Source: Planctomycetaceae bacterium (GTDB lineage Bacteria; Planctomycetota; Planctomycetia; Planctomycetales; Planctomycetaceae). From it: a stretch of DNA of 41,864 nucleotides. Positions 3,001 to 41,864 of this stretch are shown here, piece by piece (the stretch's first letter is position 1; each line of letters starts with the position of its first letter). The stretch is from assembly GCA_028291605.1 (NCBI GenBank), contig JAQGHS010000010.1, positions 1-41,864 of the forward strand, in the 5' to 3' direction. The notes beneath the pieces are model-generated. The model was not told the DNA's origin and searched no databases. It was given only the letters and a program-made list of their open reading frames with translations. Position numbers and translations under genes: made by a program.

Positions 3001-5379
3001 GTTGAGCAAGAATCCGGTACTGCCGTTGCTGGTCTGGCTGAGCTCTGCCTCGCCGCTGATCCGCAACGTCGCGGCCCCCTGCGTATAGACCGAATATTGC
3101 CGCCCACCAACTCCCTGCAGTCCCGTGAAAGTCCAGCCAGTACCGATGTTGACTGTGTCATCGACGTTGCGAACGACATTCAGGGTGTTGGAGGTCGTCG
3201 CCCCATTCGAGGGCTGGGTGATATTGAGCACTTCCCGCAGATTCAACGTCAGCGTATTGGCTCCGCTGCCGGAAATATCGATGGTCTCAATGTTCGTGAG
3301 CTTGCTATCAGCCAGCGCGGTAAGATCCAGCGTCAGCCCGCTGCCATCCAGACGCAACGTGTCGCTGCCGTTCCCGCCATCAATCCGCGCGAACGTCGTG
3401 CTCGACACCGCCAGCACATCGTCGCCCGCCCCGCCATAGAGAATGTCGGCTCCGCCATTCCCGATTAAGGTGTCGTTTCCACGGCCCCCGATGAGAACAT
3501 CCACCGTCGCGCTGCCGGTCAACGTGTCGGCATTCGCCGTGCCAACCTGGGTAGCGCTGTTGGTGAAGTTCCCACCGAATACGACGTACGATTGGCCCGA
3601 GATCACACCGCTCACAGCCGCGTTATAAGCGCCCACTAAGAGATCGGCAAAACCATCGCCATTGACGTCTCCTGCCGAGCTCACCGAAAAGCCCGATTTG
3701 TCGCCCGCCGCGATGCCATTCAGCGCAAAGCCGGTCGTGCCGTTTAACACCGTCAGATTGAACCGACCGTCCGTTGCTCCACCGCCTGCCGCATCCAATA
3801 CGGCCAGATTCGATTGACCTCCGAAAATGACATAAGACTGACCTGAAAACGAGCCGTTGGGAACCGCACCAAAGGCCCCGATCAACAGATCGCCGTAGCC
3901 GTCGCCGTTCACATCGCCCGCGCTGCTGATCGAACATCCGGATTGGTCAATCGCGGCCCCACCAGTCACCAGGAAACCGGTCGTCCCATTCACCGCCGAA
4001 AGATTAATTCGTCCATCTGCTGCACCACCGCCCGCGGTATCGAGCGCGGCAAGGTTCGACTGCCCCCCAAATACGAGATACGTCTGACCCGAGGCCGACC
4101 CATTGGGATCCGCTAAAGGGGCGCCAATCAGCAAGTCGGCAAACCCATCACCGTTCACATCACCGGCACCACGGGCGGTCCGGCCAGAATAGTCGTCAGC
4201 CAGAGCTCCATTGAGAATGAAGCCAGTCGTTCCATTCACGGAGGAAGGCACGATCTGTCCGTCAGTCGTTCCATCTGCCGCGTCCAGAACGGCGAGATTG
4301 GATGCGCCTCCGAATAGCAGGTAGCTCTGCCCCGATTTTGATCCGTTTGGATCCGCACCACTCGCGCCGATCAATACATCAGCAATGCCGTCACCGTTTA
4401 CGTCTCCGGCATTAGCGACTGAATTACCTGCGAAATCTCCGGGCAATACTCCATTAATAACGAAGCCGGTCGTCCCGTTCAGTGCTGAAAGATTAATTCT
4501 CCCATCCGCTACAGAACCTCCAGCAATATCGAGACTCGCCAGGTTCGATTGGCCACCGAAGATGAGAAACGCCCGGCCTGAATTAGTCCCATTCACATCG
4601 GACTGGAAGGCCCCGATTAGCAAGTCTGCGAATCCGTCTCCATTGACGTCCCCCGCGCCGGCCACTGAATTGCCGGAGTAATCACTCGCAGCCGATCCAT
4701 TGAATGCAAAACCGGTCGTACCGTTCAGCGACGACAAAGTAATTCGCCCATTCACCGTTCCGTCAGCCGCATCTAGTGCAGCGAGGTTGGCATTACCTCC
4801 AAACACGAGATAAGTCTGTCCGGCGTTCGTCGCATTAGGATCACCTCGGAGCGCACCGATCAGCAAGTCGGCAAAACCATCGCCATTGACGTCCCCCGCG
4901 GCAATCACCGAGTAGCCAGCATTGTCCTGCAGAGCCCCCCCCACGAAGCTAAAGCCATTGGTCCCGTTCAGGTTGGCGAGGTTCAGGCTCGCCTGAGTCC
5001 CTTCCACCGTACCGAATACTAGATAACCTGCTCCGGCATTCGTTTGGCCATTCGGGTCTGCAGAGGATGCCCCGATCCACAAATCGTCCAGTCCATCGCC
5101 ATTGACATCTCCCGCACTGGAGACCGCCTGACCTGAGGTCTGGTTCTCTACTCCCCCATCAATCGTGAATCCCGTTACGCCAGTACCGCCATTGGCCGCG
5201 AGCAGACTGCTGAGCTGGAACGGATTGGTCGCCGCCAGTACTATCCGCGATTCCAGGTACTCGGTCCGGTTCGCCACCGCGGCCAAGCGCCGGCGAGCGA
5301 CCACTCTCTTGCCGACGCGGCGGCGCAACAGGCGGGAACAATCATTTCGCAGTTCAGCCAGCCAATGCCCGATACGCAT
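1..5379 (-). CDS. Giant exported FG-GAP/RTX repeat protein, N-terminal 1,793 codons (3' end outside window)
   Basis: The minus frame from ATG at 5379 has no stop to the window edge; I read every triplet of almost all lines. The N-terminus is Arg-rich (residues 16-31) and carries LESRIVLA (42-49), like the LEPR-XLL signature of very long planctomycete exported proteins. Next come blades with the Ca-binding GDVNGDGFADLLIGA core, each followed by SGQxYxVFGG and an NGTTGFxFNG segment, about 243-247 bp per blade. Core positions near 5092, 4876, 4630, 4386, 4143, 3898 and 3652 make seven blades; a beta-roll/RTX-like linker lies at about 3560-3065 (residues 607-772). Seven more blades follow (2935 to 1498), a second linker (1400-905), then four blades up to the edge. 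The seven-blade grouping matches integrin-type beta-propellers. No enzyme domain is visible, so a surface structural or adhesive role is inferred. The start lacks a strong Shine-Dalgarno (GAGAAAG is the best), but it is the only ATG before the signature. Confidence 0.88.
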   Translation of the reverse strand, partial: MRIGHWLAELRNDCSRLLRRRVGKRVVARRRLAAVANRTEYLESRIVLAATNPFQLSSLLAANGGTGVTGFTIDGGVENQTSGQAVSSAGDVNGDGLDDLWIGASSADPNGQTNAGAGYLVFGTVEGTQASLNLANLNGTNGFSFVGGALQDNAGYSVIAAGDVNGDGFADLLIGALRGDPNATNAGQTYLVFGGNANLAALDAADGTVNGRITLSSLNGTTGFAFNGSAASDYSGNSVAGAGDVNGDGFADLLIGAFQSDVNGTNSGRAFLIFGGQSNLASLDIAGGSVADGRINLSALNGTTGFVINGVLPGDFAGNSVANAGDVNGDGIADVLIGASGADPNGSKSGQSYLLFGGASNLAVLDAADGTTDGQIVPSSVNGTTGFILNGALADDYSGRTARGAGDVNGDGFADLLIGAPLADPNGSASGQTYLVFGGQSNLAALDTAGGGAADGRINLSAVNGTTGFLVTGGAAIDQSGCSISSAGDVNGDGYGDLLIGAFGAVPNGSFSGQSYVIFGGQSNLAVLDAAGGGATDGRFNLTVLNGTTGFALNGIAAGDKSGFSVSSAGDVNGDGFADLLVGAYNAAVSGVISGQSYVVFGGNFTNSATQVGTANADTLTGSATVDVLIGGRGNDTLIGNGGADILYGGAGDDVLAVSSTTFARIDGGNGSDTLRLDGSGLTLDLTALADSKLTNIETIDISGSGANTLTLNLREVLNITQPSNGATTSNTLNVVRNVDDTVNIGTGWTFTGLQGVGGRQYSVYTQGAATLRISGEAELSQTSNGSTGFLLNGAATDDRSGRAVANVGDVNGDGLDDILIGAFNADPSTGTNAGVSYLVFGTIEGTQANLELSTLNGTTGYMLTGTAAGDGAGKLVSGAGDVNGDGFADLLIGAPYAHPNGSLSGQSYVIFGGAANLAALDTAGGTAADGRINLGAVNGTTGFAFNGQAASHEVGSSVSAAGDVNGDGYADLLIGAIGAAPNGAFSGQSYVVFGGLANLAALDTAGGTAADGRINLGALNGTTGFAFNGLATNDESGFAVSGGGDINGDGFADILIGAPDASPLSTNSGQSYVVFGGPTNLAALDTAGGAAADGRIELSALNGTTGFALNGLYSSGTTLSGTGDVNGDGFADILVGGPVANGNGPDSGQSYLIFGGQTNLATLDTAGGGAADGQINLSVLNGTTGYVLNGAAHSDDSGRGLSEIGDINGDGFADLLLYAQGADPNGSDSGQAYVIFGGAANLAALDTAEGGAADGRFSLAALNGKTGFALNGITANNRMGRSASGAGDVNGDGFADVLIGTSYANPNGTFSGQSYVVFGGNFTNSATQVGTANADTLTGSAAVDVLVGGRGSDILVGNGGADILYGGAGDDVLAVSSTTFARIDGGNGSDTLRFDSSGLVLDLTALADSKLTNIETIDISGSGSNTLTLNLREVLNITQPSNTTTNSNTLTVLRNGDDTVNIGTGWTFTGLQGIGGREYSIYTQGAATVRIAGAVELGQIGNATAGFTLNGGAAGDRTSRSVANVGDVNGDGLDDLLIGAPYADPATGSNAGASYLVFGTIEGTQANLNLSMLNGTNGFVLNGLVANDYSGTTVSGAGDVNGDGFADLLIGADFATPNGTRSGQAYLVFGGPANLAALDSAGGAAADGRINLSALNGTTGFVFNGIALRDYAGGSLGSAGDVNGDGFNDLLIGAFRADPTGGNAGQTYVVFGGQANLATLDAAGGNATDGRINLSALDGTTGFVFNGVSAIDESGSSISGVGDVNGDGFADLLIGAPFANPNGANSGQTYLV
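905..1400 (-). repeat. RTX-like beta-roll linker, copy 2
   Basis: Encodes GGxGxD-type nonapeptides (ILYGGAGDDVLAVSS, IDGGNGSDTLRF), then SKLTNIETIDISGSG and an RNGDDTVNIGTGW segment. This architecture is common in planctomycete and cyanobacterial RTX proteins, where the nonapeptides bind calcium. It is closely similar in nucleotide sequence to the copy at 3065-3560. Confidence 0.75.
3065..3560 (-). repeat. RTX-like beta-roll linker, copy 1
   Basis: Same module as 905-1400: GNDTLIGNGGADILYGG nonapeptides followed by SKLTNIETIDISGSG and an RNVDDTVNIGTGW segment. It sits between the first and second seven-blade groups. Long runs match the other copy with only occasional substitutions. Confidence 0.75.
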
Positions 5380-40041: not shown

Positions 40042-41397
40042 TCACAACTCAACCGCCTTATTACTATCCCCGAACTTATCCGTTTCTACGCCCATCCGCT
40101 GAGCCATCAACAGGAGCAGGTTGCTCAGGTGGGCATCCGGGTTTGCGGGTCGGCTGCAGAGCGAGTAATGCTCACCGGGCTTGTCTAGCTGATAGCCCTT
40201 GAAGTGCCCTTGGTTAAAGTCGAGATGGCTGCCATGCTGCAGCCCAAGGTCTGATCCACCGGCGAGCACCAGGGGCAGGTTGGCGTTGCCGTGGCTGTGT
40301 CCGTACGACATACCGCTGCCGAAGAGGGACATCGTTGTATTCAGGAGCGGCTGGCCGCTGAGATCCTTCGTTTCCGCCAGGCGGGTGAGGAAGTAGCTGT
40401 ACTGCTCGATCGCGAAGGTATCGTAATTTGTAAGCTTCTCGATGTAGCCGGAATCGCCGCCGTGATGGCTGAGTTGATGGCGGGACTCCGTGATGCCGAT
40501 CTCGGGAATGGCGATGGCGTCTCCCTCACCACCTAGGCTGAAGGTGGCCACGCGCGTCAAATCGGTCTGGAAGGCGAGCACGATCAAATCATAGACAGTG
40601 CGGAAATAGTCACCCGCCATGGTGTGAGCAATGTCGCGGTTGGTGCGTTGGCGATCGGCGGCCGAGACGGACGGCAGCGGCGTGTCGAGCCAGGCGTCGG
40701 CCCGCCGCGTGCGAATCTCTGCCTCACGGACCGACGTCAGATATTGTTCCATACGGCCTTTGTCCGCCGCTCCCATTTTTTGTTCGATCTTGCGTACTTC
40801 GGCGAGGTTGGCGTCGAGGACACTCCCTTTGCGGCGCAAGACCCTGCGCTGGGCGCCCTTGCCACCTTTGGGTTCTTCAAACAGCGAGGCAAAGATCTCG
40901 CTGCAGCGACGCATCGCGGGAAGCCGGACGCCATCTGCTGTCCAAGCCAGAGAATCCTGCGTGATCGCAATTTCCAGCGACGAGTACCGCGTATGCATCG
41001 CGGTAATTTCGGCCATTTTCTGGTCGACGGAGATGGTATTACGATCCGTAGGACCGAGATTACCACCAGTCAGCCAGACCGAAATGCAGTTGTGATGGTG
41101 ACTGAGCGCTCCCGGATGATGCAGGCCGCTGATCGGCGTGATCACGTCACGGTGCTTTTCCAGCGGCTTAAGCGACCGGGAGAACGTGTAGTCCTTGCCA
41201 GGCGTGGTGACCTGGTAATTCAGTGAGTGTACGCCATTCGCAAGATAGATAAACGCACTACGTCGCGGAGTCGCTGTTTTGTCTTCAGCGGCCTGCAGCG
41301 GCACCATGCATTCCAGGAATGGTAGGGAAATGCATGTGCCTAGGGCGCGCAATGCGTGTCGGCGGTCTAGTAGCCAGTTTTGCGAGAGGTAGGGCAT
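40042..41397 (-). CDS. DUF1552 family exported protein
   Basis: 451 residues, the usual length for this planctomycete-rich family. The N-terminus has a twin-arginine-like segment ([10 protein letters not shown], Arg12-Arg13) before a moderately hydrophobic stretch ending near LQAAED, suggesting Tat export of a folded protein. Family signatures are [13 protein letters not shown], the His-rich [22 protein letters not shown]-like region (about 90-110), [64 protein letters not shown] and PLVLAGG. These resemble DUF1501/sulfatase-related alkaline-phosphatase-like folds; the reaction is unknown. DUF1552 genes usually sit next to a DUF1592/DUF1588-type cytochrome gene, not seen here within the window. 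A heptamer array fills its 5' leader. Confidence 0.94.
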
Positions 41398-41406
41398 GTT
41401 ATTAGC

Positions 41407-41434
41407 TTCTTGGTTCTTGGTTATTAGTTCTTGG
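41407..41434. repeat. Heptamer array (TTCTTGG-type, four copies) upstream of the DUF1552 gene
   Basis: Heptads ttcttgg, ttcttgg, ttattag, ttcttgg lie 10-37 bp upstream of the DUF1552 start codon on its leader side. The only ribosome-binding candidate (AAGAAG) is part of this array. It matches the array at 39753-39787. Confidence 0.85.
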
Positions 41435-41480
41435 CCGCGCTAATTGCTAACGAATTCCCCGGAGGGGATATGCATCATAG

Positions 41481-41636
41481 CCCAGGGTTGCCCGCTTTAG
41501 CGGGCTACCCTGGGTAGATCGTCCATTTCGACATCTACCCTGAAAGGGTTACTTCCTGCGACAGACAAAACCCTTTCAGGGTATGGTCACTCTGGGAATC
41601 CATCCCCAGGGTAGCCCGCTGGTGCGGGCAACCCTG
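41481..41636. repeat. Composite nested palindrome (REPIN-like)
   Basis: Hairpin A is at 41481-41514 (CCCAGGGTTGCCCGC-TTTA-GCGGGCTACCCTGGG, one T-T mismatch). Hairpin A' is at 41607-41636 (CAGGGTAGCCCGC-TGGT-GCGGGCAACCCTG), an inverted copy of A. Between them a perfect 15-bp inverted repeat TACCCTGAAAGGGTT (41536-41550) / AACCCTTTCAGGGTA (41569-41583) has an 18-nt loop. The order A-b-b'-A' makes one large nested palindrome, the layout of paired inverted REP elements. Confidence 0.85.
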
Positions 41637-41681
41637 CGCTATGTTACATAACCCCGTTGGGGTATTAATTTGCTAGCCGCC

Positions 41682-41751
41682 GGGTGCCACTGGCTCTGCC
41701 AGTGCCAAGCGCCATTCGACTCGCAATGCACTGGCCAAGCCAGTGGCACCC
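41682..41751. repeat. Double-hairpin palindrome ending at the stop codon of the right-edge gene
   Basis: GGGTGCCACTGGC (41682-41694) and GCCAGTGGCACCC (41739-41751) are perfect inverted copies. Each half also folds on itself: CACTGGC-tct-GCCAGTG on the left and CACTGGC-caa-GCCAGTG on the right, so either one long or two short hairpins can form. Its last base is the last base of the TAG of the minus-strand partial gene, so it could end that transcript. Similar CACTGGC/GCCAGTG repeats are, to my recollection, dispersed in planctomycete genomes. Confidence 0.8.
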
Positions 41752-41864
41752 TACGCCGTTAACCCTTTTTGGATCATCGCTCTAACCTCTTTTGCACGGG
41801 CGACTTGTTTTGGAGTGGCGTCGCTAATAATGGGGCAGCCGGGCGGAGTCTCTTTCTTCTTGCG
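41751..41864 (-). CDS. C-terminal fragment of an unidentified gene (5' end outside window)
   Basis: The minus frame entering at 41864 stays open for 37 codons to TAG at 41753-41751. It encodes a Lys-rich stretch, then PPGCPIISDATPKQVARAKE and a helical end, VRAMIQKGLTA. Open frame, helix-friendly composition and a palindrome at the stop support a real gene end. It is too short to name and does not resemble the cytochrome partner usually found beside DUF1552 genes. Confidence 0.45.
   Translation of the reverse strand, partial: RKKKETPPGCPIISDATPKQVARAKEVRAMIQKGLTA

Follow-up and report, generated by a model that had tools for sequence, protein, structure and literature searches.

It is, to our knowledge, still open how IS200-type elements gave rise to REPs and REPINs. 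In the REPIN/RAYT (TnpA_REP) system, as described in PMC3116915 and PMC2817692, a Y1 transposase gene lies between two inverted hairpin repeats. The REP itself is given a length of 20-40 bp in one account (PMC3733652) and of 21-65 nt in another (PMC6006769), and T-T mismatches are reported to occur in REP-related DNA (PMC7709200). Known members of the IS200/IS605 family are characterised as having no terminal inverted repeats (PMC2817692). Subclass 1.2 of TnpA_Y1, recognised by the signature Y---Q--HH, is described by Quentin et al. 2018 (PMC6006769) as generally devoid of the typical terminal IS200 structures and as occurring mostly in Cyanobacteria and Bacteroidetes. A search of the main texts of the open-licence literature yielded no description of REP-like arms for this subclass.

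The element considered here combines features of both sides. We regard it, with a probability of about 0.8, as a non-autonomous REPIN-type mobile element in which both ends of an IS200-type element with a TnpA_Y1 (subclass 1.2-like) transposase are kept and the gene is missing.

Palindromes in the gap beside a DUF1552 gene

The window, i.e., the whole stretch of 41,864 nucleotides that was analysed, is contig 497 of a draft genome (G000, the host genome below) of 9.1 Mb in 1049 contigs, 87 % complete. Its gene content (DUF1552) and its relatives suggest a planctomycete host. Roughly half of the window is occupied by a single open frame of 6781 aa on the minus strand (12429-32774). The palindromes lie in the gap 41398-41750, between a DUF1552 (HXXSHH) gene on the minus strand (40042-41397) and a frame that is cut by the contig end.

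The larger part of the cluster is a gene-less element, called A1, at 41451-41668, in which a three-hairpin unit is followed after an 18-nt spacer by its inverted copy. The left unit (41451-41550, plus strand) is of the L type with a AATTCCCC end, the right unit (41569-41668, minus strand) of the R type with a AATACCCC end, as defined by an alignment of arms and by R1, a covariance model of the 100-nt A1 unit built from one family. R1 gives the two units 107.8 and 102.9 bits, scores to be read with the window's own arms forming part of the model. In the left unit an outer small hairpin (41456-41468), which carries an A-U/U-A swap between L and R arms, precedes the foot ATAG (41477-41480), directly 5' of a large hairpin with a T.T mismatch (41481-41514, seen both in the palindrome search and in the arm alignment); an inner small hairpin closes the unit (41536-41550). 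The right unit repeats this order on the minus strand, with the inner small hairpin at 41569-41583 and the large hairpin at 41605-41638, both from the palindrome search, the foot at 41639-41642 (CTAT on the plus strand), and the outer small hairpin, taken from the arm alignment, at 41651-41663. A preliminary description of this DNA had reported two inverted copies of one hairpin around a 15-bp inverted repeat, and this is what we find, the repeat (41536-41550 and 41569-41583) being perfect; in addition, there is a small hairpin at both outer ends, and the two arms of the 15-bp repeat each fold into a small hairpin of their own.

A palindrome search recovers the A1 element as a structure with 69-nt arms that are 80 % complementary (41446-41514 and 41605-41673). 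In the region 41441-41760 the best hairpin scores 12, compared with at most 9 in 500 dinucleotide shuffles, and two hairpins reach a score of 8 or more, against a shuffle mean of 0.06 and a highest shuffle count that is also 2; the whole window holds 11 such hairpins, these two included. Folded as single-stranded DNA, the 218 nt of 41451-41668 give z = -12, and none of 200 shuffles is equally stable.

The remaining palindrome, a REPIN-like pair of a separate family B (GGGTGCCACTGGC...), occupies 41682-41751 with 24-nt arms that are 92 % complementary. The preliminary description had also singled it out as a double hairpin whose edge overlaps a stop codon, correctly so: the codon lies at 41751-41753 (CTA on the plus strand) and ends the minus-strand frame cut by the contig end. 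In the host genome, 13 of the 20 family B rows viewed (19 places, L057 and L066 being one and the same) show two inverted cores within about 76 bp, and several of the non-paired rows are short matches. With one substitution at most allowed, the B palindrome is absent from 29 PF01797 loci of the genomes G001-G003 and from L007, L009-L012 and L113, and equally from L005-L012, L070-L080 and L111-L140; no cognate transposase was assigned to the family. A homologous gene end in G001 (L207, 74 % identity over 121 nt) lacks the palindrome and keeps the sequence over the stop codon, so the palindrome was probably acquired at the gene's end. In four contigs (window 41682-41751, L042, L044 and L051) B pairs or halves lie next to one recurring gene end (TACGCCGTTAACCCTTTT); three of the four sites are near contig ends, and some may represent one locus or copies of one gene.

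That several families should meet in one gap had been read as suggesting a hotspot. As a general rule this was rejected: family B occurs within 300 bp of only one of 17 A1 or A2 elements, the window's own, with 0.075 cores expected. One further gap, on contig C583, contains two families. The preliminary reading of a REPIN-type element with a RAYT-like transposase in a hotspot is, as a whole, partly supported.

Dispersed units, an empty site and the longer frame

An exact pattern for the large hairpin matches 16 times in the host genome and never with the reversed control. BLAST with the A1 element returns 36 rows, from which 14 places were taken as two-armed copies, including two that a contig end truncates. 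The 26 arms of these copies align as a 100-nt unit composed of a small hairpin, a CATAG foot, a large stem, some 22 nt and a second small hairpin. The large stem has 15 steps, and its T.T mismatch is invariant in all 26 arms. In the aligned arms 97 % of the structure cells pair, compared with 95 % in shuffles, and a change on both sides is seen at two pairs only, chiefly the A-U/U-A swap between arm types. Since covariation is this slight, the structure of the unit rests more on its repeated palindromy.

Searching the host genome with R1 gave 111 rows. Once five rows below 24 bits and the echoes on the opposite strand are set aside, at least 79 non-overlapping units are left; the unit counts are lower bounds, with 150 of 2161 candidates scored and all subfamilies pooled. 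Inverted pairs account for 62 units (31 pairs), and the other 17 are single, some of them at contig ends. Every one of the 31 close pairs runs plus then minus, 14-68 nt apart, and no other orientation was seen, so that both the further copies and the genome-wide paired inverted organisation anticipated in the preliminary description are borne out. By eye, the units fall into subfamilies: A1, to which the window belongs, A2 (CAAATAG-CCTAGGGTTGCC), A3 (AAAG-CCTAGGGTCGCC) and A4 (TTAG-CCCCGGGTTGAGCG), and an A5 type was likewise noted.

Among 32 A1 pairs examined, 30 consist of one L-type and one R-type arm (binomial p = 1.2e-7, copies taken as independent); the exceptions are L234 (R/R) and L236 (L/L). 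This count leaves aside C343 and C326, which are cut by contig ends, and the gene-bearing locus L113, whose two arms are of one type; it takes the arm types of L016 and L017 from the arm alignment, and the sister genome G003 has A1 units beyond those counted. The predominance of L/R heterodimers supports the view that the pairs are copied whole.

At contig C256 a copy present in the host genome is absent in G003, where its two flanks abut and about 375 bp are missing. The C583 site, compared by eye, has an A5-type pair in G003, whereas the host genome shows an A1 pair together with a single A5 arm. A clean empty site corresponding to the window copy was not found: in G003 the homologue of the DUF1552 gene (91 % over 1398 nt) lies in a 4.4-kb locus that has no unit, and its neighbour gene differs.

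The insertion at C256 includes more than the two arms. Part of the A1 copies, at least six of 14 in the host genome and nine of 20 examined in G003, are enclosed by a frame of about 80 nt, whose terminal repeat near CTGRTGTGATGAAAAG is present on one side or on both (L015, L018-L021 and L025; L224, L225, L227-L232 and L237), as is an A2 element (C549); the unit that moved at C256 was therefore about 375 bp long and not 230. The copy in the window represents the short form. Beside the C256 element, at L015:1785-1816, there is also a palindrome around CCGACGCTGGCAGCGTCGG, of which a dozen or so places are found among the matches listed for G002 and G003.

These frames allow a different account, in which a CTGRTGTGATGAAAAG-framed form of about 375-390 bp would be a MITE of a DDE-type insertion sequence, the hairpin pair its cargo and the window copy a truncation. 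The terminal repeats are indeed inverted, they occur (with one mismatch at most) at 11 places in G000 and G003 against none for the reversed control, and the C256 insertion spans the frame. However, all 11 places are beside A1 or A2 elements; in these two genomes the terminal repeat was not seen apart from them at this stringency, and the frame as an independent MITE was rejected. The short copies moreover end, as judged by eye, near the same point as the transposase-bearing element at L113. A DDE-type origin is therefore unlikely.

Transposase genes between matching arms

The PF01797 profile has eight matches in the host genome. At one of them (L007, on contig 199), which encodes a protein of 151 aa (P0001), an A2-type unit scoring 63 bits lies upstream and a small hairpin downstream, at the contig end. 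The host assembly, which is 87 % complete and has several of its 1049 contigs breaking inside these repeats, yielded no transposase with A1-type arms. In the sister genome G003, locus L113 has a Y1 (PF01797) gene between a plus unit of 102.9 bits and a minus unit of 92.1 bits. These arms closely resemble those of the window element, and the gene occupies the position of the 18-nt spacer; the window element accordingly looks like the L113 element without its gene. Genes are bracketed in the same manner in L071, L072 and L074, from records labelled Blastocatellia, Hydrogenedentota and Bacteroidaceae, respectively.

Around 44 transposase loci (four from the host genome, the query among them), R1 units (E <= 0.01, within 250 nt) are present on both sides in 20, on one side in nine and on neither in 15. 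R1 derives from one family, and a model-free test was therefore added, in which the 5' flank of each locus was compared with the reverse complement of every 3' flank; it covered 41 loci, with L007, L080 and L135 left out for short flanks. In 33 of the 41, the 5' flank finds its best inverted match in the 3' flank of its own locus; among these are loci that R1 had missed (L005, L075, L078, L130-L132, L134 and L136). The own partner ranks second in the near relatives L124, L126 and L127 and far down in L070, L077, L121, L129 and L138, and its lead is small in L073, L076 and L079. The arms thus mostly match per gene. By eye, A2 resembles the arms of the transposase on contig 199, A3 those of the L122 transposase (G002) and A5 those of the L137 transposase (G003).

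By pattern, 38 of the 40 bracketing arms have NNAG as the foot before the large hairpin; in the other two, from L074 and L119, it was read by eye as ACAG, the pattern having matched, in one L074 arm, a base stretch ahead of the true foot. GTAG occurs in three of the 40 transposase-flanking arms; the foot in the window is ATAG. In L073 and L129 the units face the wrong way relative to the transposase gene, which, like the 15 loci with no unit in bracket position, counts against the reading as a gene-less TnpA_Y1 element. In L073, from a Pirellula-labelled MAG, the units beside the transposase (2713-2808 and 3526-3619) point outward, the HUH motif of the protein reads HVQ and the frame contains a stop. 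A more divergent Y1 gene in the host genome (L009, G000:C739) is flanked by hairpins AAAAAAGGTGTCAGGAACCTTTTTT and AAGAAAAGGTTCCTGGCACCTTTTCTT, which are perhaps another REP-like pair.

As to the class of the enzyme, P0001 scores above the cut-off of the IS200/IS605 model (62 bits against 55). None of the three host proteins scanned reaches the cut-off of 80 bits set for the REP-associated tyrosine transposase model NF047646: P0001 gives 23 bits, another 28 bits and the third no match. An alignment of 40 proteins, without the partial genes of L080, L129, L135 and L136, has Y---Q throughout, so that the class 2 motif Y---NP is absent; the HUH motif is seen in 39 and the subclass 1.2 signature Y---Q--HH in 38. 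In the two exceptions, L113 and L007, the first H is replaced by R, yet these are the proteins closest to the window's families through their A1-like and A2-type arms. The transposase is therefore an IS200-side TnpA_Y1, subclass 1.2-like, with a signature that L113 and L007 carry only in part. The preliminary description had expected a RAYT-like transposase with matching flanking palindromes: a Y1 gene with matching arms exists, in G003, and it is not a canonical RAYT, as judged by the failure of P0001 with the REP-associated model and by the Y---Q motif. Because defining features of a RAYT transposase are lacking, we do not file the element under the RAYT system.

Of the 59 genomes searched, the host included, 24 have units and 26 have the transposase. 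The two coincide in 20 genomes; four have units only, six the transposase only and 29 neither, with G013 entered as transposase-positive on a short weak match. Fisher's test gives 5.7e-7 for this co-occurrence, a value that overstates the association among related genomes and is no true probability. Among 18 genomes with at least three units, three have no detected transposase (G018, G030 and G054). The transposase itself is at low copy number, with one to eight matches per positive genome, fragments included.

We infer that the small transposase of the sister genome moves the window element, which is REPIN-like in form and probably also in action. Its hairpins follow one another as an outer small one, a large one with an AG foot and an inner small one, and the second half repeats them in inverted order. 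The Y1 transposase would bind the hairpins on single-stranded DNA, strand polarity being given by the T.T mismatch and the NNAG foot as in REP/TnpA_REP; it would cut by its tyrosine and mobilise the pair as a whole in trans.

A conserved structural RNA, or a terminator or attenuator that is merely repeated, would also account for the very stable fold, and there are weak sub-threshold Rfam matches, the best to mir-449 (E 5.6e-4, over family B) and PrrB/RsmZ (E 7.9e-4, over the A1 element). However, none of the six Rfam matches in 41000-41864 attains the gathering score, and they were rejected as chance; the C256 copy is present in one sister genome and absent from the other, and such an RNA would leave both the inverted duplication and the likeness to transposase arms unexplained, which makes it very improbable. 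Remnants of an ordinary IS200/IS605 insertion sequence can be dismissed almost entirely, for although the transposase passes the IS200 model, the arms are inverted and symmetric, and each genome has only a few, diverse genes alongside numerous gene-less pairs.

Position among known Y1 systems

Read as a gene-less TnpA_Y1 element, the locus belongs to a series whose stages can be seen side by side: a gene-bearing element, a similarly ended pair that lacks the gene, and, within a single genus, several transposase-arm families. This suggests a second lineage of Y1 enzymes with their own miniature mobile repeats. More broadly, we lean towards the idea that the IS200-side subclass 1.2 is itself a REPIN-maker, in which genes would lie between inverted three-hairpin arms and gene loss would give rise to dispersed pairs; the REP/RAYT lifestyle would then occur on either side of the Y1 family, whether through ancestry or through convergence. 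The loci also provide a short list of enzyme-substrate pairs for direct tests of hairpin recognition and movement.

The comparison with REPIN/RAYT systems, as portrayed in the sources cited above, is close in several respects: a Y1 gene flanked by a pair of inverted hairpin repeats, numerous inverted pairs that lack the gene, one repeat family per transposase, an AG-ending foot 5' of the hairpin, and an imperfect stem. It differs in that the transposase here is on the IS200 side (Y---Q) whereas theirs is of class 2 (Y---NP), in arms of about 100 nt with three hairpins instead of one short REP, and in a foot that is NNAG, with GTAG in 3/40 arms, where RAYTs have GT[AG]G. Ordinary IS200/IS605 insertion sequences, defined by the lack of terminal inverted repeats, are set apart by the inverted arms.

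Subclass 1.2, as outlined in PMC6006769, shares the signature (38/40), a short protein and a low copy number. Its members are described there as generally without terminal structures, unlike the inverted arms present here, and the hosts also differ, being in our case presumed planctomycete relatives and records labelled Blastocatellia, Hydrogenedentota and Bacteroidaceae. TnpA_Y1 class 3, in the same account, is similar in being found principally in Planctomycetes, Acidobacteria and Proteobacteria and in its atypical multi-copy flanking structures, but it combines Y----Q with a CnGA foot, in contrast to Y---Q with NNAG. Finally, the GTAG-15 dimers of Anabaena variabilis, according to PMC3733652, likewise consist of an inverted REP pair inside an inverted frame, and the frame is reported as not found without the pair; their sequences and host are different, and in the genomes studied here only some of the copies are framed.
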